A DNA stretch of 64,000 nucleotides, from positions 1-64,000 of the forward strand of contig JACDGV010000007.1 in the NCBI GenBank assembly GCA_013821425.1, written 5' to 3'. The DNA is from Nitrosospira sp. (GTDB taxonomy: Bacteria > Pseudomonadota > Gammaproteobacteria > Burkholderiales > Nitrosomonadaceae). Of the stretch, positions 289-14,606 are shown piece after piece (the first letter of the stretch is position 1; every line of letters begins with the position of its first letter). Made by a program: the position numbers and the translations under genes. The notes beneath the pieces are model-generated. The model saw nothing but the letters and a program-made list of their open reading frames with translations, had not been told where the DNA came from and did no database searches.

Positions 289-320
289 ACCTCTCGCTCG
301 TTACCGAACCCGTTGTCCTT

Positions 321-355
321 AAGCCCCCGCATAATTGGCGGGGGCTTTTCTATTT
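321..355 (+). terminator. Rho-independent terminator of PEP-CTERM copy 1
   Basis: A perfect 9-bp stem, AGCCCCCGC (322-330) with GCGGGGGCT (338-346), has a 7-base loop and is followed by TTTCTATTT. It lies 33 bases after the stop codon of the partial gene. Confidence 0.9.
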
Positions 356-1114
356 CTTATCAGCCTGTTTAACTTCGGGCTACGGATAATAAATAGAGGT
401 GACACGAAGCACACCATGTCTCGATTCCCTTGAAGGCAGTTTTTTTTGGGGGGGACGAACACGTGCGATGGAACCTCACGCTTTCAAGGCGAAAAATCGC
501 TTCATGTTCCATAGGCCAGGCACACAGGTTCATTCGCCGGACGACTGAGCGATATGATTATCCGATGTTCTGTTGGCAAGTCCGACAGACTTTTAGAGCA
601 GAAATCGCAATAGCACTGGAAATACCGAACGCGCGCAGACAGTTATAATTAACGTTTTTATTGGTTGACGGAATCGGCCTTGTGCGCACAATCTCGTGCC
701 CAATGCCGGTGCCAGAACCTGCCCTCGCTGAGCTGTGGCATCGTGTTTCTGCAAGTACCCTTCCTCCATACTCTGCGCTCCATGCAACCACTCCGTCAGT
801 GGTCATGGCTGTATTCCAATAGCCAGCAACTAGCTTTGCTGCTTACCTGAGCGCCGCTGCAAGTGAGTCCGCGGCGCGCACAGTGGCTTCCACAAGGTAT
901 CCATCACGCCGGAAGCCCTGCGATGCCCTCATGCGCTCTCCGGGATAAGTTCAAGCTGGGCCGTCAGGTCACCTAATCCGATGCATATTGGAAAATGCCT
1001 AGACTTAGTATTTTGTCGCAGGCCTTGACACTAGCAGAAAAGAAAAGCGGGCCAGGCCTTGTATTGAGAGAAATTAACTTCGTGAAATTAGCACGTTAAA
1101 AGTTTGTTAAAGAA
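356..1114. other. Long intergenic region without a recognisable gene
   Basis: No reading frame here resembles a known protein or has a convincing ribosome site. Bases 594-812 are a worn copy of the sequence at 2152-2372. Bases 356-593 have no counterpart after the second gene copy and include a run of T then G near 440-455. The right end leads into the RpoN-type promoter of the next gene. Confidence 0.6.
594..812 (+). repeat. Degenerate repeat downstream of PEP-CTERM copy 1 (pairs with 2152-2372)
   Basis: Shared blocks appear in the same order in both stretches: a CGCAATA block, a block around TGCCAGAACCT, GGCATCGTGTTT, CTTCCTCCATA and GGTCATG. Identity by eye is roughly two thirds, with small gaps. 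The old duplication therefore reached beyond the terminator. Confidence 0.7.
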
Positions 1115-1131
1115 TTGGCACAGTACTTGCT
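1115..1131 (+). promoter_or_regulatory. Sigma-54 (RpoN) -24/-12 promoter of the PEP-CTERM gene
   Basis: The sequence TTGGCACAGTACTTGCT fits the RpoN consensus at every key base, with GG and GC separated by exactly ten bases. It predicts a start of transcription near 1142 and a leader of about 95 bases. Two GTTAAA direct repeats (1095-1100 and 1106-1111) sit just upstream, and three AATAGC repeats (1160-1177) lie in the leader. PEP-CTERM/EPS systems commonly encode the NtrC-type activator PrsR, so RpoN control is expected; that regulator is not in this window. Confidence 0.85.
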
Positions 1132-1236
1132 TATATGACATCGGTTGCGGGAAATTATAAATAGCAATAGCAATAGCACGCAAGAGTTCATTTTATTTCA
1201 CCGCCCCCTAACTTAATTCTACTAACGGAGAGTCAC

Positions 1237-2082
1237 ATGAACATACGTAATACGGTATTGGCAGCGGCGTTACTTGGAACGATAGGCTTTTCTCAGTCGT
1301 CTATGGCTATAACCATTGATGGCATTACATTCGCCAATGGCTCGAACTTTGAAACACTAGATCTATTCCAAGGAAGACGTGGCGGAGGCGCAATCACAGC
1401 CGTTGGCGATGAGTTGATCGGTATCGGTATCGTGAATCGTATTCTGGATGCCGATAATAACGTACTCTGGCAGAATGGGGATGATGGCAGGGAGTTAACG
1501 GTTTATTTCCAAGGCTACTTTGCAGAGAGTCTGGCCACTGATGCTTTTGGAACCACTTTCTTGGATAGAATATTATTTAGCGGCGGCTCGCTATCCCTGT
1601 TCTCTGATTCAACCCCAAATTTTTCGGCCTCAGGAACACAAGCGGCTGGAATTGCTTCTGCGACGGACGGGAGCCTTTTTCTGTCCCTAACAGGCTCAGC
1701 AATCGGAGGATTCGGGGCCAACACCGGCGATCCTATTACATTGGCTTCAGAAGCGCTTCGCAACAGCGGCGATCCCTTCACGAACAGCTTCAATATTACC
1801 GGCAGGGGATTGCTGGATGTGACTGGCGGGTCAGCAGCTTCGTTCTTCAATACGAACACATTTGGATGCGTAGGGGCGAACGGTGCACCTTGCCCTGACG
1901 ACGCTGACAAGAGCTTCACATCCTCAGGTCAACTGGGGGTCGCAGGAGCCTGGGCGGCGCGTGGCACTGGGGAAGTACAGGACGTTGCTTTGATCCCTGA
2001 ACCAGCCACCTTGGCCCTGCTCGGCGTGGGCCTGGCCGGAATGGCGTTTGGCACCCGGCGCAAAGCCAAAGCGGTGGCATAA
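1237..2082 (+). CDS. PEP-CTERM sorting domain-containing protein
   Basis: This 281-residue exported protein has a signal peptide (residues 1 to about 24, ending SSMA), a Ser/Gly/Asn/Thr-rich body with no recognised enzyme domain, two cysteines within a short loop near residue 210, and a C-terminal PEP-CTERM signal. The PEP motif is at about 254-256, followed by a hydrophobic helix and RRKAK. Such proteins are processed by exosortase XrtA and are linked to exopolysaccharide or biofilm. The start has an AACGGAGAG ribosome site. The gene stands alone between the RpoN promoter at 1115 and the terminator at 2115, and is the intact copy of the pair. Its exact function is unknown. Confidence 0.93.
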   Translation: MNIRNTVLAAALLGTIGFSQSSMAITIDGITFANGSNFETLDLFQGRRGGGAITAVGDELIGIGIVNRILDADNNVLWQNGDDGRELTVYFQGYFAESLATDAFGTTFLDRILFSGGSLSLFSDSTPNFSASGTQAAGIASATDGSLFLSLTGSAIGGFGANTGDPITLASEALRNSGDPFTNSFNITGRGLLDVTGGSAASFFNTNTFGCVGANGAPCPDDADKSFTSSGQLGVAGAWAARGTGEVQDVALIPEPATLALLGVGLAGMAFGTRRKAKAVA

Positions 2083-2149
2083 ACCTCTCGCTCGTTATTG
2101 AACCCGTTGTCCTTAAGCCCCCGCATAATTGGCGGGGGCTTTTCTATTT
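1795..2149 (+). repeat. Long direct repeat, copy 2 (pairs with 1-355)
   Basis: This is the second copy of the near-identical block covering the C-terminal codons and terminator of the PEP-CTERM gene. Identity collapses right after the terminator, where TATTTGGAGAAA replaces TATTTCTTATCA. Confidence 0.95.
2115..2148 (+). terminator. Rho-independent terminator of PEP-CTERM copy 2
   Basis: The stem AGCCCCCGC (2116-2124) with GCGGGGGCT (2132-2140), a 7-base loop and a T-rich tail is identical to the terminator at 321-355. It is 33 bases after the stop. Confidence 0.9.
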
Positions 2150-2151
2150 GG

Positions 2152-2372
2152 AGAAAAAACCGCAATAACACCGGAATAATCAACGCGGATAAACGAATTA
2201 TGATTAAGTGATATTCTGATACAGCCTCGCGCGTAATCTCATGTCCAACATCGTTGCCAAAACCTACCCCCTATCGGCTGCGGCATCGTGTTTTTGCAAA
2301 TAATATTTGTCAACCCTTCCTCCATATCTGCACACCATGCAAGGGAAGTATCCGAACGCCGGTCATGACGTC
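2152..2372 (+). repeat. Degenerate repeat downstream of PEP-CTERM copy 2 (pairs with 594-812)
   Basis: This is the partner of 594-812, with the same ordered blocks at much lower identity than the adjoining coding repeat. Confidence 0.7.
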
Positions 2373-2970
2373 GCCAGAGGAAGCAAATTGACATAGTTTT
2401 GGAGCAACCCCCCCTGAAGCTGGACAACTTGCGATGAAGAATTTAAGCCCTCGCGTAACAAGTTGCGACTCACACTGTTCCGGCAATACATAGCCTAAGG
2501 CGGAGGGCATCTGAATGGCATTGTAAATTTCCTCGAAAAAGGGGAACAGGCCTCGCTCTGACGTCGAAGTTAGCGCAATACGGCTGCTTATTTATTCTGC
2601 CCTCCTCTCCTATAATAAAGGCTTGCAACATCGCTTAAGGGCCTTTGCCTCTCATTTCTCATGGCTACTCTTCAGTAGCAATGGCACAGCTGATCGCCGC
2701 TTACCCCTCGGTTTCTTTCCACCCATGCGAAGAGTTATAATTTTCTTGGTATCGATGCACATAATAAGATGGGATAATGCCTGCCTGATTCCAAAATTCT
2801 CAATTCTCGAAAAAATGCTCAGGAGAGGCAAGGAAAGCTTGTCGGTGCAGGTGGGGAAGAAACAGAACCGTTCTCGTGTCCGACGCAGTTCCTGAGGCAT
2901 TCTTATGTTCCCCTCGTCCGAGCAGTTATCCGAAATAGAATGTGGCGCAAAAAATTAACCTTCGGTAAGA
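2373..2970. other. Intergenic region without a recognisable gene
   Basis: The frames here give no recognisable protein; one open frame at 2623-2895 (TTG start) has no family resemblance or good ribosome site. The stretch presumably holds the promoter of the permease pair starting at 2971, but no confident sigma-70 or RpoN site was seen. Confidence 0.5.
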
Positions 2971-4194
2971 ATGCTCTGGCACGAATTTAACTTGGCATTG
3001 CGCAACGTGGTGCGTCAAAGACGCCGCAGCGCCATAACGATAGGGGCTGTTGCGTTCGGTATTGCAGCGTTGGTCTTGGCCAACGGGTTTATCCAATGGA
3101 TACTTCTGGATTTCCGGGAAGCAACAATCAATTCTCAACTTGGGCATCTCCAAGTTGTTCGTCCAGGCTACCATGCCGCAGGAAAAGCCGATCCCTTTGC
3201 TTTTCTTTTGCCGGAAACCTTGCCTGAGCTGGAAGCGGCAAAAGGGGGGCAACAAATAAAAGCAATCATCCCCAGACTTTCCTTTAGTGGATTGATCAGT
3301 CACGGAGAAACGACGCTCTCCTTTATCGGCGACGGTGACGATCCGGAAGGGCAAGAGGCTTTTACAAAGGCCCTACAAATTTCTGTTGGACGGAACCTCT
3401 CCGTTGACGATCCACTTGGCATCATAGTTGGAGAGGGACTCGCACGTAGTCTTGGGCTCGATGTTGGCGACCGCGTGGTGTTAATGGCGACCACCGTTTC
3501 AAGAAGAACAAATGCAGTCGAGGTGACTATAAAGGGCTTGTTCTCCACCGTGAGTAAATCCTACGACGACATTGCGCTGCGCATGCCCATCGATACTACG
3601 CGACGACTACTACGTACACCAGGGTCCCATATCTGGATGGTGCTACTTAATAACACTGCAGATACGGATATTGTCCTTGCAAAATTGCGCAACAAACTTC
3701 CCCGGGGCGAATTCGAAATTGTGCCATGGCATGAATTGGCGGATTTCTATAACAAGACAGTGATATTGTTCAACAAACAGATACAGGGAATCAAGCTGAT
3801 AATTGCTGTGATCATTCTGCTTAGCATATCTAACACCATGACCATAAGCGTAATGGAGCGGATCGGAGAAATTGGAACCTCTATGGCCCTCGGAGTGAGC
3901 CGCACCGGTATCATGCGGCTGTTCCTTGGAGAAGGTGTTCTCCTAGGCTGCTTGGGTAGCGCGCTCGGTTTGCTAATTGGAAAGCTGTTAGCTACTTTGG
4001 TTTCCAGCATCGGTATCCCGATGCCACCCCCACCAGGAACATCCCACGGCTACACTGCGGAAATCCTGCTCTCTTGGAACATAGCGGCGGAGTCTTTTGC
4101 GCTTGTCATTGCCACCACCCTTGTTGCCAGTATTTATCCGGCATGGAGGGCATCAAGAATGCAAATTGTCGACAGTTTGCGCCACAACCGCTAG
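2971..4194 (+). CDS. ABC transporter permease, FtsX/LolC-E/MacB family (first of a pair)
   Basis: This 407-residue inner-membrane protein has the four-helix FtsX layout: one N-terminal helix (about residues 20-42), a large periplasmic domain (about 45-270), and three C-terminal helices (about 275-300, 320-350 and 368-392). It keeps the family signature near 'ERIGEIGTSMALG' before helix 3. It works with a MacB/LolD-type ATPase to move lipoproteins, lipids or hydrophobic molecules out of the membrane. The next gene, 13 bases away, is a paralog, so the pair resembles LolC/LolE. The matching ATPase is probably the gene at 9294-10019 on the other strand. The substrate is not shown by sequence; the neighbouring N-acyl amino acid synthase suggests an acylated small molecule. 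Confidence 0.88.
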   Translation: MLWHEFNLALRNVVRQRRRSAITIGAVAFGIAALVLANGFIQWILLDFREATINSQLGHLQVVRPGYHAAGKADPFAFLLPETLPELEAAKGGQQIKAIIPRLSFSGLISHGETTLSFIGDGDDPEGQEAFTKALQISVGRNLSVDDPLGIIVGEGLARSLGLDVGDRVVLMATTVSRRTNAVEVTIKGLFSTVSKSYDDIALRMPIDTTRRLLRTPGSHIWMVLLNNTADTDIVLAKLRNKLPRGEFEIVPWHELADFYNKTVILFNKQIQGIKLIIAVIILLSISNTMTISVMERIGEIGTSMALGVSRTGIMRLFLGEGVLLGCLGSALGLLIGKLLATLVSSIGIPMPPPPGTSHGYTAEILLSWNIAAESFALVIATTLVASIYPAWRASRMQIVDSLRHNR

Positions 4195-4207
4195 CAAAGT
4201 AATAGAT

Positions 4208-5419
4208 ATGTTCAAACTTGCGCTTCGCAATGTTCTCCGTCAGAGAGCCCATACGGCAATGACACTCGTGGCAATCATGTGCGGCGTAGGAGGACATGTC
4301 TTGGCCGGCGGCTGGGTAAACGATATTTTCATAAAACTGGGTGAAGCATTGATTCATTCTCAATCAGGACACATACAGGTTTATAAATCTGGCTTCTACG
4401 CAAAGGGGTCTCCCGAGCCAGAGAAATATCTGCTCCCAAACGCGGAAACGGTAAAGCGACGTATCGCTGGCGTAGCTGGCGTGGAGAGCGTAATGGCACG
4501 CCTCAATTTCTCCGGTTTGCTCAACAATGGCCGTAGTGATATGCCGATCATCGGGGAAGGTATTGAGCCTGAACGGGAAGCTGAACTTGGAAGCTCTGTC
4601 GTTATTACCGCAGGACGGCAACTGACCAGTACGGATACTTTTGGCATCATGGTTGGGCAAGGCCTTGCTTCGGGATTGAGATTAAAACCGGGTGATCTTG
4701 TTACCTTGCTGGCAAGTACGCTCGATGGTACGCTTAACAGTATGGATTTCGAGGTAACTGGGATATTCCAGAGTTTTTCAAATGATTACGATTCACGAGC
4801 TGTAAAAATTCCGCTGGCTGCAGCTCAGGAACTGCTCGATAAAGTAAGCGTAAACGCGCTTGTCGTCACGTTGGGAAGAACCAGTGACACAGATCGCATT
4901 GCAGAAAGCTTGAAGGAGCAGTTTGATCCTTTGGACTTGGAAGTCAAAACCTGGATCGAACTGAACGATTTTTACGAAAAAACGGTAGAACTATATAAAG
5001 GTCAGTTTGGGGTTTTACAGCTGATTATTCTCGTTATGATTTTATTAAGTGTTGCAAACAGCGTGAACATGAGTGTATTTGAACGGGTTGGAGAGTTTGG
5101 CACAATGATGGCTCTCGGCAACCGTAACAGTCAGGTGGTTGGGCTAATCATGACTGAAAGTATACTGCTCGGGCTGATAGGTAGTGCCCTTGGGCTTGCA
5201 TTCGGCATGCTATGTGCGCTGGTAATCTCGGCAGTAGGCATCCCGATGCCGCCACCCCCGAATGCGAACCTGGGCTATACAGCCCAGATCCAGATCGTTC
5301 CTTCGGCTCTGCTCATCTCGTTTACCATCGGTTTCGCCGCGACGGTCGTAGCCACCCTCCTTCCGGCAAGACATGTTTCCCGTACACAAGTCGCAGAGGC
5401 GCTAAGGCAGAATTTTTGA
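4208..5419 (+). CDS. ABC transporter permease, FtsX/LolC-E/MacB family (second of a pair)
   Basis: This 403-residue paralog of the preceding permease has the same layout: helix 1, a periplasmic domain, then three helices around the ERVGEFGTMMALG motif. Both proteins share the unusual GIPMPPPP segment before the last periplasmic loop. I start it at ATG 4208 because MFKLALRNVLRQRAHT aligns with the start of the upstream paralog; a longer in-frame extension from 4097 would overlap that gene. The two genes are cotranscribed by position. The downstream flavoprotein gene converges on this one with a 31-base gap. Confidence 0.88.
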   Translation: MFKLALRNVLRQRAHTAMTLVAIMCGVGGHVLAGGWVNDIFIKLGEALIHSQSGHIQVYKSGFYAKGSPEPEKYLLPNAETVKRRIAGVAGVESVMARLNFSGLLNNGRSDMPIIGEGIEPEREAELGSSVVITAGRQLTSTDTFGIMVGQGLASGLRLKPGDLVTLLASTLDGTLNSMDFEVTGIFQSFSNDYDSRAVKIPLAAAQELLDKVSVNALVVTLGRTSDTDRIAESLKEQFDPLDLEVKTWIELNDFYEKTVELYKGQFGVLQLIILVMILLSVANSVNMSVFERVGEFGTMMALGNRNSQVVGLIMTESILLGLIGSALGLAFGMLCALVISAVGIPMPPPPNANLGYTAQIQIVPSALLISFTIGFAATVVATLLPARHVSRTQVAEALRQNF

Positions 5420-5450
5420 TGACGGCCAATTAAAGTAATATTGTAATAAC

Positions 5451-7148
5451 TTAATCAATACCATATCTCCCAGGGGAAAATATACCGGCTGGATCAAGTG
5501 CTGCCTTGAGTTTTTGATTTAGCTCTTTTAACTCAGGACATTTCTGGTACAGTTTCTTCCACCCATTTATCCCCGCACGAAAATGTTGATATCCCATATT
5601 GTGAGATAAATCCAGAATTGCCCCGTATAGTTGTTCCGCACGCTTGCAATCGTCCTGATCCAGACGATCGTAAAGTATTACCATTAAGGGGCACACGCTG
5701 CGAGCATTAAAAATCATGGTGGTCATATAAAAATCGAAATTGAACTTTTCAAACAGCGCTTCACATTTCTCGGTAAACAGGATAACTTCAGCACCTTTAA
5801 ATGGCAGCACTGGAACAGACCATAATATTCCAATATTGTCACGTCCCACGTGAATGTCTTTTACTGGTCGTTTTTTTGGATATCGAAAGTAGCCGCGTTT
5901 AACGACCGTTTCAACTGGTTTGCCCTCATGCAGATCGATCAATCCAGGGAAGAGCCTGACAAGCGCCAGTGATGAACCCAACATGTTTCGTATCGCCCGA
6001 TCAATCAACGTCAAGAGAAACTTCGATTCGATTTTTTCGACTGATTCAACCAGGCTGCGAATGAACCGGGCGCGTCTTTTAGCAAATACATTAATGTGCG
6101 CCACTGAACCCGATTTCTTCAACTGGCGACTGGCGAGCCTGGATGCAGCATTTACCATTGAGGTGGGACCATATATTCCAAACGAACCTGTCCAACCTGG
6201 TACATGGTATTTTTGCTTTAGCCTTGTAAGTTCATCCCTACTAATAGCTTTTTTGGGCTCTATCCCTTCATCAATAGCCTGGGTAAGTAGCGTTAAAATT
6301 GCAACATCATTTGAAAACCGCCCGGTTTCCTGAATCACACCTGAAAGCATCAGCTCACGCACGGTATCCATGCATTTAGCTAGGGCCACATTATCCTCAA
6401 TGTTCAGGCTAAATAAGACATAATCCTCGGGTTTACGCATCAACCATATCCCGGCTCTAGTTACAATACCGAAATTTGACTGACTAAACAGGCCCTCAAC
6501 ATACGGACCCACACCCCACTTATATAAATGAGCACCACCTTTAGTACCGTCTTTGCTGACAGCGCCTGTGTTTACGATGTTTCCGTCAGCAAGTACCACC
6601 TCGTACCCGCACAAGCACGCGAAGTGGTCGCCATATTTAGTTACACCCACACCGCGGTCGAGAGCGTTACCTATTACACTACCTGTTGGCGGCCCTCCCG
6701 GAGAGTCAGTCCATAACGAATAGTTATTCTCAATCAGAAAGTGGTTTAATGCTTCATAGGTGACGCCCGGTTCGATAATGGCGTAAGCGAGTTCGTCATC
6801 CACATAGATGATTTTATTCATGCGGTTTAAAAGTACGACGATAGAATACATACTGCCGCTGGTATTTAAATAACCCCAATTCTTACCAGTGCTATAAACC
6901 CAAAGTTTTACCTTGTGTTGACCCGCCAACTTAACCAAGACTTGAGCTTGCTCTTTCGATTCGGGATATACAAAAGCAAAAGGTTTACATGCGTTTACTG
7001 CTGGATCTTTTGAAAGTAACTCGTAATCGCTACCCGACTCAATTATTTGATCCTCGTTAAATTCGACCTTAAGGGATGACATAAAAGAATTCAGCATTGA
7101 GGCTGGAGATTCATCGGTCGTTCCATTTAAACTTTTCTCATTCAGCAA
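5451..7148 (-). CDS. FAD-linked oxidase, p-cresol methylhydroxylase / vanillyl-alcohol oxidase family
   Basis: The 565-residue protein has the N-terminal FAD-binding type 4 fold. A YSTGKNWGY pyrophosphate loop is at about 85-93, EPGVT at 126-130, and a GSVIGNALDRG...YGDHF block at about 156-175 that is typical of the 4-cresol dehydrogenase subgroup. A FAD-linked oxidase C-terminal domain includes RDNIGILWSVPV near residue 430. Known members oxidise para-alkyl or hydroxybenzyl phenols. The first codon is TTG, placed ten bases after AAGGAG; ATG at 7097 is the alternative. There is no signal peptide and no cytochrome partner gene. Its place between exporter genes and an N-acyl amino acid synthase suggests a phenolic or acyl-amino-acid substrate, which is inference. 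Confidence 0.8.
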   Translation of the reverse strand: MLNEKSLNGTTDESPASMLNSFMSSLKVEFNEDQIIESGSDYELLSKDPAVNACKPFAFVYPESKEQAQVLVKLAGQHKVKLWVYSTGKNWGYLNTSGSMYSIVVLLNRMNKIIYVDDELAYAIIEPGVTYEALNHFLIENNYSLWTDSPGGPPTGSVIGNALDRGVGVTKYGDHFACLCGYEVVLADGNIVNTGAVSKDGTKGGAHLYKWGVGPYVEGLFSQSNFGIVTRAGIWLMRKPEDYVLFSLNIEDNVALAKCMDTVRELMLSGVIQETGRFSNDVAILTLLTQAIDEGIEPKKAISRDELTRLKQKYHVPGWTGSFGIYGPTSMVNAASRLASRQLKKSGSVAHINVFAKRRARFIRSLVESVEKIESKFLLTLIDRAIRNMLGSSLALVRLFPGLIDLHEGKPVETVVKRGYFRYPKKRPVKDIHVGRDNIGILWSVPVLPFKGAEVILFTEKCEALFEKFNFDFYMTTMIFNARSVCPLMVILYDRLDQDDCKRAEQLYGAILDLSHNMGYQHFRAGINGWKKLYQKCPELKELNQKLKAALDPAGIFSPGRYGID

Positions 7149-7586
7149 AGTCCGTTTACTCCTTCCATAAACATGGTCTTCTACATCCCGCAGATTATCC
7201 CCGGTTAAAGTATCCGAATATTATCAATCTTCACTCTGAGCCAGCATCGACATCAAGGGCTAATTTCTTGCTTCCTTCCGTATCCTTTAACGATCAATAA
7301 ATCCACGCCTCGTTCCAATTGCTGCCCGCGCATTATCAAAGTTGAACGATTGAGAAATTCCATAATGTCGATCGCCCGAGCGCCAGCCATGCATGAGGCC
7401 TCATGCAGCAATTCTCGATTTTTTAATGCCAAAGCGTTGTCCTTGCTCATGGCGATTACTTATTTTCATGAATTGATGATCTGGTCAACCATAGGAACCC
7501 CCTCTCACCACTCGTCACACAAGTTTTCATCATAACCCCTACGGATGGAATAACAGCTTCTTGAGTCTGCCTGCCTCTAACTTGCA
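7149..7586. other. Intergenic region with one doubtful short frame
   Basis: A 65-residue minus-strand frame (7253-7450) starts with ATG but has no ribosome site and resembles nothing I know; it may be chance or the remnant of a gene. The rest should hold the promoter of the flavoprotein gene. No hairpin or repeat stood out. Confidence 0.4.
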
Positions 7587-9245
7587 TTAAAACGAAAAGC
7601 GCAACTCGGTGTAGACCCGGTCATTTTGATCGAAGCGGCCAAACAGCCCGGTGGGTCTGCCGCCGAAAACATCCGCTCCCAGTGCCCAGCGCCAGTTCCT
7701 CTCGAAATTCCACGATACCCGCGGGCGAAACATCCAATCGCTGCGATTCAAACTGTGAATTAGCAAGGCTTGCGCTTCAAGCGTGTGCCACAGCTTTCGG
7801 TTAAGAAGGACGCTGGCGCCGTTTTCCACCATGTCCGAAGTAATGCCAGGATCGTGCGCGAAAAACACTCGCTGGAAGAACTGCAGGTTCAAGCGTGTCT
7901 CCGCGGGCAAACTGAAGTCGAGACCCAGCGCGTAATCGAGGGTATTCTGCCTGACCAGCCCATCCACGGCGGCAGGTCGTGCGACGTTGAACTTGCGCCC
8001 ATCCGTGTAAACGAGTTCACCCTTGAATACCATCGGCCCAAAATCCTTTGTAATGGTTCCGCCAACCTGGTCGATCTGGTCGTGGCGCGGCTGAAACACT
8101 GGCGGCTCTGTTGGGCCGCTTACCCGATAGAACGTGGAAGAGGCATCAAGGCTGTGGTAATAGAAACCTGAGATGTCCCAACCATTCATCAGTTGTGATA
8201 AACGGACTCCGTAATTCGAGTTGCCAACATTCCGTCCGGAACGGTCTTCCGGCAGATAGGCGGCTCCACGTAACGGACCCGGGTAAAAGTCGGCGCCCGG
8301 CTTTCCGATTTCGTCGAGGGTCGGCACCGGTATCCACAGTACTTCAGCATGGAGTTCATTTTTTGAATATTCCGCGCGCACCGCGTACTGCGGGATGCGC
8401 AGGATATCGAATGCCGGGAGGATGAACTCGCGCATATCCTTCGCGGATACCACATCGGCAAAAAACAGGCCGACCATTTCACCCCATATTACATGTTGCC
8501 GGCCGAGGCGGAAGTCGAAATCGCCGGCGGACACATCCACATAGTTCTCGCGCAGAAAGAACTCGTAGCGTTGGTCCCGGCGGACCGCCGCCGGGTAAAA
8601 ATTGGACAAATCGTACGCTGCGTCATAGTCGAACCGACCGCTGATTTTCCATTTTATATGTTCGTTGAATTGCCCGGTGCGTAATAGCTCGGTTCTCAGC
8701 TTAGCTTTGGATAAATGCTCGGGATTGCTATAGTTATCCGCAATTTCCAGTTGAGAAAACCCCTTCCAGTCCGTCACCAATTTCTTCCAGGGGGGGAGCG
8801 GGGCCGCGTTGTCACTGGATGCTTCATCGTCGCCGAATAGCGATTCACGCGACGTGAGTGCGGCTCCCACGTCATCTTTAGCCGGCGCGGTTAAACTGTC
8901 CTCTTCCTTCCGCGTCACTAGTTGGAGCGGGAGCGGGGAAAGGGTCGGGGACAGCGATATGAGCAGTGGCTCCCCGTTGATCTCCTGAATGGAGACGCTA
9001 TGACGGATAGCGAAATCGGCACTAGACACCGTTTTCGCCGCCTCGCGAGGTGGGAACGAAGACAGGGATAAAGACAAGGTCAAAACTAAAGGTTGCTCAT
9101 CATTATGGGTCGTCAGTGGAGCGGATAACGCCGAAACCGGATGGGCCGGGGAAACTGGTGCCGCAGTTCCGGCAAAGCTTTGCGGCGGCAATACGATCAA
9201 TGCCGCAACGGATATGAAATACCCGAGTTTAGGTCCGTGTCCCAT
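7587..9245 (-). CDS. DUF1302-like outer-membrane beta-barrel protein
   Basis: The product (552 residues from ATG 9245) has a signal peptide ending about PQSFAG, a Pro/Ser/Thr-rich linker of about 130 residues, then a region of alternating strands with FRLGRQHVIWGE and FFADVVSAKDMREF, hallmarks of the DUF1302 family. It ends in YTELRFSF, the C-terminal aromatic pattern read by the BAM machinery. DUF1302 proteins are often paired with exporters and a periplasmic partner. Here it lies just downstream (48 bases) of the ATPase gene on the same strand, so the two are probably cotranscribed. A GTG at 9272 could give a nine-residue longer form. It is a likely outer-membrane pore or acceptor for the exporter. 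Confidence 0.75.
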   Translation of the reverse strand: MGHGPKLGYFISVAALIVLPPQSFAGTAAPVSPAHPVSALSAPLTTHNDEQPLVLTLSLSLSSFPPREAAKTVSSADFAIRHSVSIQEINGEPLLISLSPTLSPLPLQLVTRKEEDSLTAPAKDDVGAALTSRESLFGDDEASSDNAAPLPPWKKLVTDWKGFSQLEIADNYSNPEHLSKAKLRTELLRTGQFNEHIKWKISGRFDYDAAYDLSNFYPAAVRRDQRYEFFLRENYVDVSAGDFDFRLGRQHVIWGEMVGLFFADVVSAKDMREFILPAFDILRIPQYAVRAEYSKNELHAEVLWIPVPTLDEIGKPGADFYPGPLRGAAYLPEDRSGRNVGNSNYGVRLSQLMNGWDISGFYYHSLDASSTFYRVSGPTEPPVFQPRHDQIDQVGGTITKDFGPMVFKGELVYTDGRKFNVARPAAVDGLVRQNTLDYALGLDFSLPAETRLNLQFFQRVFFAHDPGITSDMVENGASVLLNRKLWHTLEAQALLIHSLNRSDWMFRPRVSWNFERNWRWALGADVFGGRPTGLFGRFDQNDRVYTELRFSF

Positions 9246-9293
9246 CGGCCTCGCTTTTACCGGTACCGGCACTTCCGGGCAAGAGGTTATCGC

Positions 9294-10019
9294 TCACGCG
9301 ATGCGGCCGGCCGCAGTGGGCCGTTTCTCTTCGTCCCGGACTTCCTGCGTTATGATCTGCCCGTCTTCTATATGTACCAACCGATTCGCCATCTCCATGA
9401 CGCGCGAATCATGGGTAGAAAAAATAAAGGTTGTTCCAAAATTGCCGTTAATATCCTTCATCAATTGCAGAATTCCTTCACCCGTCTTATGATCAAGATT
9501 GGCAGTCGGCTCATCGGCCAAAACGATCTTCGGTTGGGTTGCCAGCGCCCGCGCGATCGCGACGCGCTGCCGTTGCCCGCCACTAAGCTGGTTGGGGCGA
9601 TGTCTGGCAAACTTGGATAAGCCGACAATGGAGAGGTATTTCGAGACACGGTCGCGACGCTCTGATGTGCTTAGCTCCTTCAGTTGCAGCAGGGGATACT
9701 CGACGTTTTCCTCAGCAGAAAGAACGGGGAATAAATTGAACGTCTGAAAAATGAAGCCGATGGTGCGTGCCCGGAGATCCGAAAGTTGGTCCGGCGTCCG
9801 GCCGCTGACATCCTGACCGTTGATGAGTATCTTCCCGCATGATGGAGTATCAATGCAACCGATGAGATTAAGCAGGGTGGACTTGCCACTTCCGGATGGG
9901 CCCGCAATCGCAAGGAAAACACCGTCATCGATACTCAAGGTGATGTCGAGGAGCGCCTGGACTTGCTGTTCGCCCAGCGTGTAATCTTTGGAAACATTCT
10001 CGAGGCGTACAATGCTCAT
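9294..10019 (-). CDS. ABC transporter ATP-binding protein, MacB/LolD family
   Basis: This 241-residue ATPase is complete. Walker A is GPSGSGKST (40-48), the Q-loop is near residue 92, the signature is LSGGQ (145-149), Walker B is KIVLADE (164-170), and the H-loop histidine is at 203. The overall pattern is that of the LolD/MacB/FtsE subgroup, which pairs with FtsX-type permeases. No permease is adjacent, so it most likely energises the permease pair at 2971-5419. It is transcribed with the DUF1302 gene and divergently from the LolA-like gene at 10074; the 54-base gap must hold both promoters. Confidence 0.9.
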
Positions 10020-10073
10020 TGATACTCCAAATAGGCAACCTGGGGAAACGACACCTGGTTAATAGGAATCAAA

Positions 10074-10835
10074 ATGCAAAAAAACTGCTTGCAATACTTG
10101 CTTTCGCTGGCCTTTATGTTCATAGCCTCAGTGTCCGTAGTATCCGCGGCGTCCAGCGACGCCGAAACCGCGCAGAGCCTTTTGCAAAAGGCTGACCAGA
10201 TACGTTTCCCGCGCGAAAGCTTTCAGGTGGACGTCGTCATCACGACCATTGCCCCGGGCCGGGCACCCGATGTGGGCAAGTACCGGGTTCTATCCAAGGG
10301 AAACGAAAACAGTGTGGTGATGACCACTGCGCCCGCTTCCGAGCGCGGACAGATTTTGCTCATGAGAGGCCGCGACCTCTGGATATTCATGCCCGATATC
10401 TCGCAACCCGTACGCCTTTCATTGTCGCAACGGCTTACGGGCCAAGTCGCCAACGGCGACCTGGCTCGCGCCAACTTTAGCGGTGACTACAACGCAACTA
10501 TTTTGCGTACAGATACCATTGACGGCGAGGACTACTATGTACTTGAACTCATCGGCGTCGATCGTAGCGTTACGTATCATAAAGTCTTGTATTGGGTGCG
10601 GCAATCGAATTTGTGGCCCTTCCGTGCTGAGTTCTACTCGCTTTCCAATCGCCTGCTCAAGACCGCCCGCTACGATAATTTTCAGCCCGTGCTGGGAAAG
10701 CAGAGACCAACCCGCCTTGTCATGCAGGATGCCCTCCGGGAGGGGGAAGAATCCGTCCTGGAATATTCCGAAATGAAACTGCGGGATTTGCCAGACAAGG
10801 TTTTTACCAAAGACTATCTCAAAAAACTTGAATAG
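10074..10835 (+). CDS. LolA-like outer-membrane lipoprotein-sorting family protein
   Basis: The 253-residue product has a signal peptide of about 25 residues (ending VVSAAS). The mature domain has the pattern of the LolA-like family: repeated beta strands, the 'GRDLWIFMPD' strand, then 'YWVRQSNLWPFRAEFYS' and a C-terminal 'YDNFQPVLGKQRPT' strand. LolA-like folds form an open hydrophobic barrel that carries lipids or lipoproteins across the periplasm. Together with two FtsX permeases and a LolD-like ATPase it completes a Lol-like set. The gene is followed after 12 bases by the N-acyltransferase, so the carrier and the enzyme are coupled. This is not the housekeeping lolA by context. Confidence 0.8.
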   Translation: MQKNCLQYLLSLAFMFIASVSVVSAASSDAETAQSLLQKADQIRFPRESFQVDVVITTIAPGRAPDVGKYRVLSKGNENSVVMTTAPASERGQILLMRGRDLWIFMPDISQPVRLSLSQRLTGQVANGDLARANFSGDYNATILRTDTIDGEDYYVLELIGVDRSVTYHKVLYWVRQSNLWPFRAEFYSLSNRLLKTARYDNFQPVLGKQRPTRLVMQDALREGEESVLEYSEMKLRDLPDKVFTKDYLKKLE

Positions 10836-10847
10836 CGACAAATCCAG

Positions 10848-11630
10848 GTGCTAGACCTTAAAAAAGAAACGAGTGGATTCGAACATCGGGCACAGCCTCC
10901 GTCCGACACGCCCGATTTGGGCAGTATTTTCCATCAATACTTCGAGATCGTACCGGCATTCTCCAGCAAACTTAAGAATGAAGTCTACCGTGTCCGGCAC
11001 CAGGTGTATTGCGAAGATCTCACATTCGAGCCCGTGAGACCCGACGGACTCGAAACCGATGAGCATGACTCCAACGCGCTGCATCTTCTGATGCGCAGCT
11101 TAAAGACGGGAGAGTTCATTGGGTGCACCCGGATTGTACGTCCTCGGCCGGCCGATTCCCATTACCGATTGCCTTTCGAAAAAACCTGCGCCACCGCCTT
11201 GGATCGGGCGGTTATTGACCCGGAAAAACTGCCCCGTCATCGTATCGCCGAGGTGTCGCGTCTCGCCGTTATCGCCAGCTATCGCAGGCGCAAAGGGGAA
11301 GCAAGCAGTCCCATCAGCCTGCCTGACGAAGATTTAGACCCGCGCAAATCGCCCCGCTTTCCGTACATCCCACTGGGTCTCTATCTCGGCACGACGGAAC
11401 TGGCACGTCGGCATGGGATCGACACTTTATTCGTCCTGACCGAACGCCGATTAGCGAACCATTTTAGCAAGCTGGGAGTCAAGCTTCAAATTATAGGCGA
11501 GGCGGTTGAGCATCGCGGAGAACGTGTTCCCGCGGTAATGGACGTCAACAGCATCATCAGTGAGATGCGTAACATGTTTCGCTCACTCTATCGCGCTATT
11601 GCATCGGATATCGAACGGGGCGCCCCATGA
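10848..11630 (+). CDS. PEP-CTERM/exosortase system-associated acyltransferase (N-acyl amino acid synthase type)
   Basis: This 260-residue GNAT-fold protein belongs to the family annotated as PEP-CTERM/exosortase-associated acyltransferase. Supporting motifs are 'EVYRVRHQVYCED' (about 45-57), 'GLETDEHDSNALHLL' and 'IAEVSRLAVIASYRRR' (about 137-152). Members tested from environmental DNA make long-chain N-acyl amino acids, and the family is known to cluster with PEP-CTERM genes. The start is GTG, since no other start precedes the conserved N-terminus; its ribosome site is weak, which suggests coupling to the upstream gene. The acceptor amino acid cannot be read from sequence. The gene ends the exporter locus; a hairpin follows at 11728. 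Confidence 0.85.
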   Translation: MLDLKKETSGFEHRAQPPSDTPDLGSIFHQYFEIVPAFSSKLKNEVYRVRHQVYCEDLTFEPVRPDGLETDEHDSNALHLLMRSLKTGEFIGCTRIVRPRPADSHYRLPFEKTCATALDRAVIDPEKLPRHRIAEVSRLAVIASYRRRKGEASSPISLPDEDLDPRKSPRFPYIPLGLYLGTTELARRHGIDTLFVLTERRLANHFSKLGVKLQIIGEAVEHRGERVPAVMDVNSIISEMRNMFRSLYRAIASDIERGAP

Positions 11631-11727
11631 AACGTCGCGTGTTCCCTCGAGTTCCCAAGTAAGCCTGCGGAAGCGCGCGGCGCATGGCTTGAACGCCTTT
11701 CGCGAAGACGTTTTCGGCTCGAAAACA

Positions 11728-11757
11728 TTCCTTGGCGAGTTCTGACTCGCCAAGGAA
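11728..11757. terminator. Perfect 13-bp inverted repeat after the acyltransferase gene
   Basis: TTCCTTGGCGAGT (11728-11740) pairs with ACTCGCCAAGGAA (11745-11757) around a 4-base loop. On the plus strand no T-run follows, while on the minus strand TGTTTTC follows, so terminator action is only tentative. It may instead protect the 3' end of the mRNA. Confidence 0.45.
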
Positions 11758-11947
11758 ATCGCTCGACCAAGACGATCACTTTTTGCAACACCTCTGCAGT
11801 AGTACGACTACCAACCTGTCTTCTTGAACGTCCAAGGTATATCTCTGGATGCCAGGATATTTGCTATATCCCTATTGTTTTTAAGGCTATGAAGGATCAC
11901 ACTCTTGCGTGGGGAACTCAACAATTCTGCCATGGGAGAAGAATCAA

Positions 11948-13168
11948 ATGAAAAAAAGCCTCTGCTCGACCCTGTTTGGCGTAGCTAACCTGTTTTTGCT
12001 GTGTTTCAGCGCTTGGGCAAGCGAGAACGGCGCCGCCCCCCAGTTGAGCGAGGCACGGCAAGTGGCTCAATACAACTACGTTATCCACATCCTTGCCATG
12101 CTGCTGGTAGGTTTCGGTTTTCTCATGGTTTTTGTTCGAAGGTACGGATTTGGCGCCACGACCGGCACCTATCTGGTGGTGGCAGTGGGGCTCCCCCTTT
12201 ACATGCTGCTGCGAGCAAACGGCATCTTCGGCCACGAGATAGCACCGCATTCAGTCGAGGCCTTGATGTTCGCGGAATTCTCCGTCGCTGCCGCGTTGAT
12301 TGCCATGGGCGCGGTGCTTGGACGTCTGCGTGTTTTCCAGTACGCGTTGCTGGCACTATTTCTGGTTCCCGCATATCTGCTAAACGAATGGCTGGTGCTC
12401 GATAACGCAATGGGATTGACGGAAGGTTATCAAGACACCGCCGGTTCAGTGATTATCCACGCCTTCGGCGCCTATTTTGGCCTGGGGTTATCCCTTGCTC
12501 TGACCACTGCGCGGCAACGCAGTCAGCCGATCGAGTCCGATGCCACTTCTGATCGTTTTGCGATGCTCGGCTCCATGGTGTTGTGGCTTTTCTGGCCCAG
12601 TTTCGCGACCGCCATCGTTCCTTTCGAGGAGATGCCGCAGACCGTGGTCAACACAGTACTCGCCCTGTGCGGCGCCACCATTGCCACCTACTTCCTTAGC
12701 ACGTATTACCACAAAGGCAAGACGTCCATGGTGGACATGGCGAATGCGGCGCTGGCCGGCGGAGTGGCCATCGGATCGACATGCAATATCGTATCACCGG
12801 CAGGTGCTTTCGGCATCGGTCTGCTGGCCGGGGGGGTCAGCGTCATCGGATTTGTGTTTATTCAACCGGCGCTGGAACGGCGCTTCAAAATCGTCGATAC
12901 CTGCGGAGTCCACAATCTGCATGGGCTACCGGGACTGTTGGGCGCTTTTATTGCAATACTGGTGGTGCCGGGAATAGCGGTGGCCCAATTCATCGGCATC
13001 ATTTTCAGTGTGACGTTTGCCTTCGTTGCCGGTCTCGTTGCCGGTAAGCTGATAAGGGCGACGGGTACAACGGATCTGGCTTATGAGGACAGCGAGGAAT
13101 TTACTCACACGGCAGCGCCGGCGGGAGAATCCGTTGTTCATACCTCGGCAACCCCTACATCAGAATGA
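11948..13168 (+). CDS. Rh-type ammonium/ammonia transporter
   Basis: The 406-residue membrane protein has a leading hydrophobic segment (likely signal peptide, to about WA in 'FSAWAS') and about eleven helices. It is of the Rh50 rather than AmtB type: IIHAFGAYFG carries the first pore histidine (about 171), DMANAALAGGVAIG is the conserved helix, and DTCGVHNLHG holds the second pore histidine (about 325). These positions agree with the characterised Nitrosomonas europaea Rh50 channel. It conducts ammonia, the energy substrate of these bacteria. I chose ATG 11948, eight bases after GGGAG; an upstream in-frame ATG at 11909 lacks a ribosome site. Its end overlaps the convergent rng gene by 14 bases. 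Confidence 0.92.
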   Translation: MKKSLCSTLFGVANLFLLCFSAWASENGAAPQLSEARQVAQYNYVIHILAMLLVGFGFLMVFVRRYGFGATTGTYLVVAVGLPLYMLLRANGIFGHEIAPHSVEALMFAEFSVAAALIAMGAVLGRLRVFQYALLALFLVPAYLLNEWLVLDNAMGLTEGYQDTAGSVIIHAFGAYFGLGLSLALTTARQRSQPIESDATSDRFAMLGSMVLWLFWPSFATAIVPFEEMPQTVVNTVLALCGATIATYFLSTYYHKGKTSMVDMANAALAGGVAIGSTCNIVSPAGAFGIGLLAGGVSVIGFVFIQPALERRFKIVDTCGVHNLHGLPGLLGAFIAILVVPGIAVAQFIGIIFSVTFAFVAGLVAGKLIRATGTTDLAYEDSEEFTHTAAPAGESVVHTSATPTSE

Positions 13169-14606
13169 CGTCGTATTGTTCCTGCGTGTAGGCTGTCTCC
13201 ACCTGCAGGCTGATGGGTTTGGCAATAAAATCGCCCAGTTGCGCAAGGCTTTGGGATTCTTCGTCGAGAAACAGATCGATGACTTGTTGAGAAGCCAGAA
13301 TGCGGAATTCTCGCGCATCGAATTGACGGGATTCGCGCAGTAATTCGCGCAGGATTTCGTAGCACATCGTCTTGGCGGTTCTTATCCTGCCGCGCCCTTG
13401 GCAGGTGGGGCATGTTTCGCACAGGATGTGGGAAAGGCTTTCGCGGGTACGCTTGCGCGTCATTTCGACAAGACCGAGCGCGGTAAAACCATTAACAGTC
13501 ATGTGTGTTCTATCTTTCGTTAATGATTTCCGGAATTCAGTGAGCACGGCATTCCTGTGTTCCGCGCTTTCCATATCTATATAATCAATGATTATAATTC
13601 CGCCCAGGTTACGGAGACGCAACTGACGCGCAATGACTTGCGCCGCCTCCAGATTGGTTTTGAAAAGCGTTTCGTCAAGGCTTCGCAGACCGACGAAGGC
13701 TCCGGTATTCACGTCTATAGTCGTTAACGCCTCGGTCTGATCAATAATGAGATAGCCACCGGACTTCAGATTTACGCGTCTAGCCAGAGACTTTTCAATT
13801 TCATCTTCGATTCCGTACAAGTCGAACAACGGACGTTCTCCGGCATACAGATCTATTCTTTCCGTTACATTTGCCATATATACCTGAGCAAACGCCGCCA
13901 TTTTCTGAAAGGTTTCCCGGGAATCCACCACGAGGCGGGTCGTGCGGTCATTCACAAAGTCGCGCAGCACGCGGTAGCCCAGGTTCAGGTCCTGGTACAG
14001 CAGTCCGGGCTGGGCGGTAGTGGACTTCTCCCTGATGTCGTGCCACAGCTTGTGCAGATATCCGATATCCGTTTGCAGATCCTGCTCGCTGGCGGCTTCC
14101 GCCATGGTTCGAATGATGAAGCCGCCCTTCTCACCCGGGGAAAGCAGATGCTTGAGTTTTTCACGTAATGACTTACGCTCGGTTTCGTCCTCGATACGCT
14201 GGGAAATACCAATATGGGATACCTGTGGTAGATACACCAGCATGCGTCCCGCAATACTGATCTGGGTGGAAAGCCGGGCTCCTTTTGTGCCGGTGGAATC
14301 CTTGATTACCTGGACAACGATATTTTTTCCCTCGTGCAGCAATCTTTCGATAGGTTTATCGGCGTCCTCGCCCTCACGCAACCGCCAGATGTCCGCAAGG
14401 TGAAGAAAAGCCGCACGATCCAGGCCAATATCCACGAAGGCAGATTGCATGCCTGGCAGCACCCGGATGACACGCCCGGTATAAATGTTGCCCACCATGC
14501 CGCTGGCGCTGGCGCGCTCGATGTGTAATTCCTGCACCGCGCCTTGCTCGATTACGGCGACCCGCGTTTCCTGCGGAGTAACGTTGACGAGAATTTCGCT
14601 GCTCAT
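13155..14606 (-). CDS. rng: Ribonuclease G
   Basis: This endoribonuclease matures 16S rRNA and decays some mRNAs. The product (483 residues from ATG 14606) begins SSEILVNVTPQETRVAV like E. coli RNase G and has an S1 domain near residues 35-125. The catalytic segments TTIDVNTGAFVG and IIIIDYIDM carry the two metal-binding aspartates, followed by the CPTCQGRG zinc-link motif. A longer start at 14624 is open but has no ribosome site. It is the last gene of the nadD-rsfS-rlmH-maf-rng series and follows maf by 29 bases. Confidence 0.95.
   Translation of the reverse strand: MSSEILVNVTPQETRVAVIEQGAVQELHIERASASGMVGNIYTGRVIRVLPGMQSAFVDIGLDRAAFLHLADIWRLREGEDADKPIERLLHEGKNIVVQVIKDSTGTKGARLSTQISIAGRMLVYLPQVSHIGISQRIEDETERKSLREKLKHLLSPGEKGGFIIRTMAEAASEQDLQTDIGYLHKLWHDIREKSTTAQPGLLYQDLNLGYRVLRDFVNDRTTRLVVDSRETFQKMAAFAQVYMANVTERIDLYAGERPLFDLYGIEDEIEKSLARRVNLKSGGYLIIDQTEALTTIDVNTGAFVGLRSLDETLFKTNLEAAQVIARQLRLRNLGGIIIIDYIDMESAEHRNAVLTEFRKSLTKDRTHMTVNGFTALGLVEMTRKRTRESLSHILCETCPTCQGRGRIRTAKTMCYEILRELLRESRQFDAREFRILASQQVIDLFLDEESQSLAQLGDFIAKPISLQVETAYTQEQYDVILM

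Follow-up and report, generated by a model that had tools for sequence, protein, structure and literature searches.

Gene content of the locus

The window, a 64-kb stretch of the genome of a Nitrosospira sp., carries between nucleotides 2971 and 11630 seven genes named in a first-pass annotation. All seven (7/7) proved to be open frames at the positions given in Table 1, and each family assignment was backed by Pfam or NCBIfam matches. P1 and P2 are separated by 13 bases, the P2 start being an ATG within a longer open frame that was picked by inspection, and 12 bases lie between the end of the carrier gene and the start of the synthase gene. The neighbouring PEP-CTERM gene may, judged by its sequence, specify an exosortase substrate. 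No structured RNA was detected at the gathering threshold in nucleotides 1–14000.

Table 1. Genes and other features of the Nitrosospira sp. locus, with positions in the window
Feature	Position	Strand	Remarks
Exact -24/-12 (RpoN-type) promoter sequence	1116..1131	+	Upstream of PEP-CTERM gene
PEP-CTERM protein gene, neighbour	1237..2082	+	PF07589 28.3 bits; TIGR02595 24.4 bits (cut-off 16)
P1, inner-membrane permease	2971..4194	+	FtsX C-terminal and MacB-like periplasmic core; LolCE-like, under LolCE cut-off
P2, second permease	4208..5419	+	FtsX 62.4 bits; MacB_PCD 54.7 bits
FAD-dependent oxidase, vanillyl-alcohol oxidase / p-cresol methylhydroxylase family	5451..7148	-	FAD_binding_4 91.4 bits; accessory, not core
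DUF1302 outer-membrane beta-barrel, proposed exit or receptor	7587..9272	-	PF06980 40.3 bits
ABC ATPase, LolD/MacB/DevA kind	9294..10019	-	ABC_tran 121.4 bits; under LolD cut-off
Periplasmic LolA-like lipid carrier (predicted)	10074..10835	+	PF17131 LolA_like 172.7 bits
N-acyl amino acid synthase, exosortase-associated acyltransferase (predicted)	10848..11630	+	TIGR03694 262.5 bits

Permeases and ATPase

P1 contains FtsX (69.8 bits) and MacB_PCD (65 bits) domains and shows 40% identity to P2, with which it may form a heterodimer. Against the LolCE model (TIGR02212; cut-off 362.45 bits) P1 and P2 scored 96.9 and 97.8 bits, and the ATPase scored 217.9 bits against the LolD model (TIGR02211; cut-off 307.75), all three falling far short of the cut-offs. 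This qualifies the Lol-like label of the first-pass annotation. The first-pass annotation had also raised the prospect that the permeases are the housekeeping LolCE. This was rejected, since their scores lie far under the cut-off and true LolCE (515.4 bits) and LolD (328.7 bits) proteins, both over their cut-offs, are specified outside the window on contig C24 of the same genome.

Periplasmic carrier and outer-membrane barrel

PF17131 (cut-off 30 bits) is the sole Pfam match of the carrier at E ≤ 0.001, which leaves it outside the LolA Pfam family. A profile search matched it to 3buu_A, the Nitrosomonas europaea protein NE2245 (E-value=1e-131). Its predicted model (mean pLDDT 68.3) superimposes on 3buu with Z 26.7 and on the best LolA chains with Z 10–12 over 163–174 residues, the values for other LolA chains being lower; as modelled, the carrier has a LolA-type fold. 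3BUU itself is a solved, uncharacterised structure.

The DUF1302 protein exceeds the PF06980 cut-off (23.2 bits), and its model predicts a barrel over approximately residues 165–561, the mean pLDDT of the whole model being 69.1. Comparison with MOMP, the OprD/Occ porins and AlgE gave Z values of about 20–23; these structural comparisons list porins and AlgE and do not thereby identify a cargo. No profile match was found between the barrel and the third protein of the more distant ABC-permease-LolA sets (L157, L159). The folds predicted for the carrier and the barrel would fit the export of a lipid.

In the LolCDE–LolA–LolB pathway, an ATP-driven mechanical stroke of LolCDE extracts the cargo from the inner membrane. 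The locus shares with this pathway an FtsX-type permease pair, a LolD-like ATPase and a periplasmic carrier of LolA fold, and ATP-driven extraction from the inner membrane would be the expected common step. It differs in its sub-cut-off permeases and ATPase, its PF17131 carrier, its beta-barrel outer-membrane partner and the presence of separate LolCE and LolD genes in the genome. One alternative is accordingly a second, specialised lipoprotein-sorting system, which would bring some of the ordinary lipoproteins to the outer membrane or the surface with the synthase and oxidase as mere neighbours. LolCE is the best NCBIfam model for both permeases (about 97 bits) and the modelled carrier is of LolA fold, both of which favour such a system. 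Against it are the scores under the Lol cut-offs, the restriction of the carrier to PF17131, the housekeeping LolCE/LolD pair and the absence of a LolB-like protein among the nine window proteins scanned with Pfam; it would also leave the recurring lipid-tailoring genes unexplained. We regard it as improbable.

A DUF1302 outer-membrane protein and a LolA-superfamily periplasmic protein also occur together in AmeABCD of Castellaniella, which is described as serving efflux in monoterpene metabolism (PMC6394551). AmeABCD differs in having an RND pump and a DUF1329 carrier and in serving monoterpene metabolism, and no synthase is named in the passages drawn on here (PMC6394551). By analogy, the locus could be an importer or an efflux line for hydrophobic compounds, its synthase neighbourhood being historical. 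The motor here is an FtsX/MacB-type ABC pair, however, and such pairs extract or export in known cases. Lipid synthases and tailoring enzymes make up the neighbour families identified, in a screen that did not extend to catabolic genes. This alternative appears very unlikely.

The N-acyl amino acid synthase

The synthase belongs to TIGR03694 (exosort_acyl; cut-off 111.95 bits) and is predicted from its sequence to make long-chain N-acyl amino acids. Its match to FeeM (25.7 bits) lies below the cut-off of 27. A phmmer search for solved relatives returned weak matches only, mainly to acyl-homoserine-lactone synthases (best E-value 0.017), and FeeM was absent among the matches listed.

In a phylogenetic tree of the synthases, 51 of the 52 that come from these loci group in a single clade with support 0.971, which leaves out nearly every other copy; three of the 51 belong to congeners without the transport genes. 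The synthase beside the transport genes thus belongs to a locus-associated clade. In a genome of 3.1 Mb with two TIGR03694 genes, the probability that one of them lies by chance about 10 kb or less from the carrier is approximately 1.3%.

The idea that the transport core always goes with TIGR03694 was rejected: in 30 carrier-bearing genomes no synthase lies nearby, and 28 of these lack a match over the cut-off, all 30 having a match at E ≤ 0.001 which in these 28 is below the cut-off only. A FeeM-type synthase is present in 29 of the same 30 genomes. At E ≤ 1e-20, FeeM-type synthases were found in 41/44 carrier-bearing genomes versus 8/185 in the class sample, an enrichment confounded by taxonomy, the comparison being with the class sample and not with carrier-lacking close relatives of the 44 genomes. 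Inside the class sample of 185 genomes the figures are 3/6 carrier-bearers and 5/179 others (p 0.001; p 0.012 with the genome studied here excluded).

Conservation of the transport genes

The five transport genes (P1, P2, ATPase, carrier and barrel) are all present in 18 of 22 congener stretches and all absent from the other four. Decayed pieces of the carrier, ATPase and P1 genes persist in two of these four. A homolog of the synthase occurs in 22/22 stretches, including the four without transport genes, which indicates that its product does not always need this route. In one congener (G020), the permeases lie about 38 kb from the remaining genes of the module. The five-gene set occurs in ammonia oxidisers, Accumulibacter and other Betaproteobacteria. 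Eighty loci were named, of which 58 had enough flanking sequence and were scored with our own profiles at 50 bits; these revealed the ATPase in 57, the barrel in 58, P1 in 38, P2 in 37 and the synthase in 28, neither permease being found in the fetched flank of 20/58.

The gene grouping is more than chance, and the five transport genes are a conserved unit. The proposal that the genes travel together in relatives is borne out for these five and does not extend to one fixed set of seven, since the oxidase is exchangeable, 28 carrier-bearing genomes lack a TIGR03694 match over the cut-off and four congeners have the synthase without any of the five transport genes. No description of the combination was among the papers listed by full-text searches of the open-access literature.

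Oxidase and accessory genes

The closest solved proteins to the oxidase in the PDB are p-cresol methylhydroxylase and vanillyl-alcohol oxidase, which places it in the VAO/PCMH family. A place for it in the conserved core was rejected: across 60 relatives, the match with the best E-value shows 34% identity. The oxidase, counted in the first-pass annotation as a member of the set, is better described as an exchangeable accessory, other loci carrying unlike phenol-type oxidases or ThiF. The oxidases form several groups, 25–34% alike between groups. A family oxidase match at E ≤ 1e-30 exists somewhere in the genome of 20/22 congeners, mostly away from the locus; these off-locus proteins are about 35% identical to the window oxidase over part of its length and are closer to it than the locus-linked ones.

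A VAO/PCMH-type oxidase is found in 13 of the 80 named loci (three of the 13 cut by the locus edge) and ThiF in 24, with both in none (Fisher p 0.008). P1 is on the minus strand at 17 loci; the profiled gene that comes next is ThiF at 10 of them, an oxidase at four (two on each strand) and the barrel at three.

The phenolate-binding residues of the VAO/PCMH family are a Tyr, a Tyr-Arg pair and an Arg. The pocket tyrosine and the arginine of PGRY are kept in all 18 oxidase rows aligned (18/18), at least two pairs of which are identical. The window oxidase retains the Tyr of NWGY, the Arg of FR and the Arg of PGRY, and the Tyr of the YR motif, present in the other 17 rows, is replaced by Phe. 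This substitution weakens the case for a phenolic substrate in this strain.

Accessory genes near loci in relatives include a desaturase, an O-methyltransferase, ThiF and FeeM; the window itself has the synthase and one oxidase, the other four lying near the locus only in relatives. This accessory set is comparable with that of the stieleriacine cluster (BGC0002080), which is described as containing N-acyl amino acid synthases, a desaturase, a methyltransferase, a TcdA-type enzyme, an oxidoreductase, a PEP-CTERM gene and transporters, the last being given no clear role in the parts of the paper cited here (PMC7293339). That cluster is from a planctomycete and has a C-methylating methyltransferase (PMC7293339), as against the O-methyltransferase family at the present loci; the window shares only synthase and oxidase with it, the remaining genes being found in relatives. 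The FEE cluster from environmental DNA likewise pairs an N-acyl amino acid synthase, FeeM, with an oxidising enzyme, FeeG, which is described as oxidatively decarboxylating N-acyl-tyrosines (PMC8762209); the window synthase is of TIGR03694, its FeeM match being sub-cut-off. The aryl polyene set ApeL/ApeM/ApeN, tied to biofilm in the title of the report, offers another lipid-type product cluster which, like the window, has its own LolA-like carrier and inner-membrane pump (PMC8253772). As described there, it employs an RND pump and a LolB-like protein, where the window has an ABC FtsX pair and a DUF1302 barrel, and the lipid chemistry differs (PMC8253772).

Association with exosortase

The Nitrosospira sp. 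genome contains two exosortase genes (PF09721). In the class sample, exosortase is present in 6/6 carrier-bearing genomes versus 55/185 overall (p 0.0019 with the genome studied here excluded); among 61 relatives it occurs in 24/24 genomes with an intact carrier ortholog, and it is over the cut-off in 45 of 48 named carrier-bearers. Synthases of this kind are reportedly linked to PEP-CTERM/exosortase genomes. That linkage (Craig 2011, as cited by others) is the same synthase–exosortase tie, and the citing passages do not mention a Lol-like transport unit.

These counts support an alternative in which the module belongs to the exosortase (PEP-CTERM) surface system. Its task would be to sort either lipid-bearing proteins processed by exosortase or a lipid linked to exopolysaccharide, and the synthase, though often nearby, would be separate. 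Several loci have PEP-CTERM genes in their vicinity. Moreover, at 14/58 loci the flank containing P1/P2 also holds a gene from the cluster whose representative, when tested, proved to be the XrtA export protein TIGR03027, and all 14 lack a nearby synthase, falling among the 30 carrier-bearing genomes without one.

The link is one-way, however: an intact carrier ortholog is missing from 49/55 exosortase genomes in the class sample and from 11/35 among the relatives, so that exosortase does not need the module; the synthase clade, moreover, is tied to the locus. The promoter search also bears on this alternative. The sequence at 1116..1131, of RpoN type by the -24/-12 consensus, is the only zero-mismatch match in the window; it precedes the PEP-CTERM gene, and no exact site was found before the transport genes. 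With up to two mismatches there were 49 matches against 37.4 expected, a number reached by 3 of 100 shuffles, and single weak sites are therefore not informative. Shared control of the module and the PEP-CTERM gene through RpoN was rejected, there being no exact site before the transport genes. On balance a role within the exosortase system is rather unlikely.

Proposed function

The explanation that we favour, tentatively and at somewhat below an even chance, is that the module serves exosortase-bearing Betaproteobacteria for the Lol-like export of an N-acyl amino acid lipid, perhaps an aromatic one. It is backed by the unity of the five genes, the locus-associated synthase clade, the FeeM enrichment and the mutual exclusion of oxidase and ThiF. 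The lack of a nearby synthase at all 14 loci with the XrtA-type gene lowers its weight and raises that of the exosortase alternative.

We infer that an N-acyl amino acid is the cargo. The synthase would take a long acyl chain from acyl carrier protein and couple it to an amino acid. In this strain, the oxidase could oxidise a benzylic carbon of the product, for which an aromatic residue, tyrosine for example, would be needed. P1/P2 and the ATPase would then lift the lipid from the inner membrane by a mechanical stroke as in LolCDE, and the LolA-like protein would shuttle it through the periplasm to the DUF1302 barrel, which would receive it and either insert it in the outer membrane or let it pass to the outside. 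Once there, the lipid would probably serve the exopolysaccharide/PEP-CTERM matrix. The LW13 mutants are also described as not growing in the gradient syringe, and their band defect may therefore be indirect.

A further proposal, which we consider very unlikely, joins the two systems: the synthase lipid would be the C-terminal anchor that exosortase uses for PEP-CTERM proteins, and the module would sort either this lipid or the proteins bearing it to the outer membrane, where the DUF1302 barrel would act as surface gate. If true, Gram-negative bacteria would possess a second lipoprotein pathway, and a non-canonical one.

With export of an N-acyl amino acid lipid as the preferred reading, the locus provides a concrete five-gene candidate for the exit of such lipids from Gram-negative cells, and a close relative of its carrier already has a solved structure (3BUU). 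The mutual exclusion of the flavin oxidase and the ThiF-family gene leads to a direct biochemical hypothesis. The locus touches on the question of why N-acyl amino acid synthases go with exosortase, and suggests that Lol-like machines driven by an ABC ATPase have come to handle small lipids.

Organization of the locus

Each of the seven genes claimed in the first-pass annotation proved to be an open frame at the position listed in the table, and the family assignments were upheld by Pfam and NCBIfam models. The ATPase and carrier genes diverge across 54 bases, while gaps of 21 and 12 bases separate the barrel from the ATPase gene and the carrier from the synthase gene. The first-pass annotation would have been contradicted if the permeases had proved to be the housekeeping LolCE; for the permeases and the ATPase this is not the case. 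Against the LolCE model (cut-off 362) P1 and P2 each reach only about 97 bits, and the ATPase reaches 218 bits against that of LolD (cut-off 308); a separate LolCE (515 bits) and LolD (329 bits) are encoded together on contig C24 of the same genome.

Coordinates of the features discussed
Feature	Source	Position	Direction or remark
Duplicate of PEP-CTERM gene 3' end	window	1-300	99% identical to 1795-2094
-24/-12 promoter sequence	window	1116-1131	105 bases upstream of PEP-CTERM gene
PEP-CTERM gene	window	1237-2082	
P1, LolCE-like permease	window	2971-4194	rightward
P2, LolCE-like permease	window	4208-5419	rightward
VAO/PCMH family oxidase	window	5451-7148	leftward
DUF1302 outer-membrane barrel	window	7587-9272	leftward
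LolD/MacB-type ATPase	window	9294-10019	leftward
LolA-like carrier (PF17131)	window	10074-10835	rightward
N-acyl amino acid synthase (TIGR03694)	window	10848-11630	rightward
Second TIGR03694 synthase	G000 (own genome), C54	56848-57555	28% identical to window synthase
FeeM-type synthase	G000, C7	170587-171039	
Carrier and ATPase remnants	L141	4642-5493	adjoin intact synthase
Carrier and ATPase remnants	L148	8893-9746	adjoin intact synthase
Genes between permeases and divergent synthase	L154 (G055)	8099-11786	three intervening genes

Contig C44 of the 3.14 Mb genome begins where the window does, at base 1, and the first bases duplicate the end of a nearby PEP-CTERM gene; because the window begins at the contig end, the assembly seems to break within a tandem duplicate of this gene. 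The promoter sequence upstream of the gene at 1237-2082 is the sole exact match in the 64 kb.

Carrier and barrel

The carrier profile matched 3buu_A, described as "Uncharacterized LolA superfamily protein NE2245", with an E-value of 1e-131. Its model (mean pLDDT 68.3) superimposed on this N. europaea structure with Z=26.7 (2.2 Å, 217 residues), the best LolA chains giving Z=10–12. In the literature text available, the only mention found of NE2245 or 3BUU lists the code among LolA-superfamily structures of mostly unknown function. In the DUF1302 protein (mean pLDDT of the whole model 69.1) a barrel is predicted over approximately residues 165–561, the first 153 residues being of low confidence. 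The model lies nearest to MOMP, OprD/Occ porins and AlgE (Z about 20–23), a widespread fold that reveals little about the cargo. AmeABCD, in which a barrel is reported to be paired with a LolA-fold protein (PMC6394551), offers a precedent for this pair.

The transport genes as a unit

The five transport genes (P1, P2, ATPase, carrier and barrel) are complete in 18 of 22 congener stretches and entirely missing from four (G012, G015, G016 and G022); a homolog of the window synthase is present in all 22. Whole-genome searches of these four congeners, covering the carrier and P1, revealed neither an intact carrier nor a close P1 (best E-values about 1e-19 to 1e-20). Remnants of the carrier, ATPase and P1 persist in G016 and G022, the carrier pieces being interrupted by stops. 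Loss has therefore struck the transport genes together and spared the synthase. Their joint loss points to a functional unit; the synthase is able to persist without them. In G020 the permeases lie some 38 kb from the remaining module genes. The decayed pieces in G016 and G022 adjoin the synthase (L141 and L148 in the table).

When the carrier alignment was used to search the genome collection more widely than the genus, it gave 326 relatives; the best 80, which were retained, came from Nitrosospira, Nitrosomonas, Accumulibacter, Dechloromonas, Propionivibrio, Azonexus, Rhodocyclus, Sulfuriferula and others. Genes were counted with our own profiles, built from the genus and relatives (at least 50 bits), in the 58 of these 80 loci whose carrier is preceded by 9 kb or more and followed by 2 kb or more. 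The ATPase was found in 57, the barrel in 58, P1 in 38 and P2 in 37, both permeases being missing from the fetched flank in 20; the ATPase-carrier-barrel trio is the firmest part of the module. The same loci contained the synthase (28), ThiF (23), nitroreductase (16), oxidase (10) and FeeM-type (9) genes.

A more distantly related ABC-permease-LolA_like set occurs in three loci (L157, L158 and L159, from G040, G059 and G058). After it come an unassigned protein of about 400 residues lacking a Pfam match and then two recurring genes, by eye a LytS/LytR-like pair. The three intervening genes in G055 specify a sugar-transfer-associated ATP-grasp protein, a PEP-CTERM protein and a weak match to PaaK-type ligases.

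Synthase relationships

In a tree of 85 synthases, identical sequences having been merged, one clade (support 0.971) holds 51 of the 52 synthases from these loci, the exception being that of L154; three of the 51 (L139, L141 and L156) belong to congeners that lost the transport genes. Five more sequences fall in this group: those of G003, G020, G027 and G030, which their coordinates identify as the locus copies, and one from G064. A TIGR03694 copy of carrier-bearing G080 (L248) lies outside, and the window's own genome encodes a second, divergent synthase above cut-off as well as a FeeM-type enzyme. The window-synthase subfamily thus mostly goes with the locus.

Among 30 carrier-bearing genomes without a nearby synthase, 28 lack TIGR03694 over cut-off, with weak matches only, and 29 possess a FeeM-type synthase. 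The latter occurs at E≤1e-20 in 41 of 44 carrier-bearing genomes (42 over cut-off); its rate in the class sample is 8/185, a comparison confounded by taxonomy. Within that sample the carrier-FeeM association gave p=0.001 (0.012 with the own genome left out), on small counts, G129, G189 and G242 having the carrier and no FeeM at this threshold.

Tailoring genes and the oxidase

Among the genes at the loci of relatives are those for FeeM and ThiF proteins, a nitroreductase, a fatty-acid desaturase, an O-methyltransferase and a glycosyltransferase. Below cut-off, PRK14852 (NCBIfam) matched the FeeM-like protein at model positions 80–225 and the ThiF protein at 313–586, and PRK14851 spanned ThiF then nitroreductase in succession; these matches suggest the existence of such fusions. 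TcdA is a member of the ThiF family, with which the weak match of the ThiF protein to the TcdA model (65.7 bits; cut-off 304) agrees. For the dehydrotyrosine of the stieleriacine cluster, formation by a TcdA-type enzyme together with an oxidoreductase has been proposed (PMC7293339), and FeeG is reported to be an oxidative decarboxylase of N-acyl-tyrosines (PMC8762209).

A VAO/PCMH-type oxidase is present in 13 and ThiF in 24 of the 80 loci, and never both (p=0.008); the genus shows the same pattern (7/22, 10/22 and 0/22), the oxidase and synthase of G015 lying on separate contigs. Where P1 is on the minus strand (17 loci), ThiF follows as the next profiled gene in 10, the oxidase in four (two on each strand) and the barrel in three. 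In a comparison of 18 oxidase rows including that of the window, with at least two identical pairs, the groups are 25–34% alike, one broader group spanning 44–48%. The pocket tyrosine and the PGRY arginine are conserved in all 18; the window oxidase has FR in place of YR. We infer that 4-hydroxybenzyl-type oxidases were recruited repeatedly for a step performed elsewhere by ThiF and a partner. An oxidase of the same family (E≤1e-30) occurs in 20 of 22 congeners, usually away from the locus, which counts against a special meaning of the locus oxidase.

Exosortase association and proposed role

In the class sample of 185 genomes, all six with a carrier ortholog are among the 55 with an exosortase (p=0.0019, own genome left out). 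Exosortase was found in 35 of 61 relatives, including all 24 whose carrier is intact and at least 63% identical. Of the 80 named genomes, 48 were checked: exosortase was over cut-off in 45, weak in one and absent from two. The link runs in one direction only, most of the class-sample genomes with exosortase having no carrier. The flank of 14 of the 58 loci contains a gene from a cluster that was tested through one representative, the XrtA export protein TIGR03027 (236 bits), the neighbouring cluster matching TIGR03007 (513 bits). All 14 carry P1/P2 and none has a nearby synthase, which favours assigning the module to the exosortase/PEP-CTERM system. That alternative is plausible, and because of these loci the most economical account, in which a Lol-like machine is dedicated to exporting an N-acyl amino acid lipid, is put tentatively at a little under an even chance. 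The aryl polyene set provides a precedent for a Lol-like route reserved for one lipid natural product (PMC8253772). A synthase mutant of Methylomonas LW13 is reported to show an altered polysaccharide band, the mutant also failing to grow in that set-up (PMC11072679); the altered band suggests a role in matrix formation.
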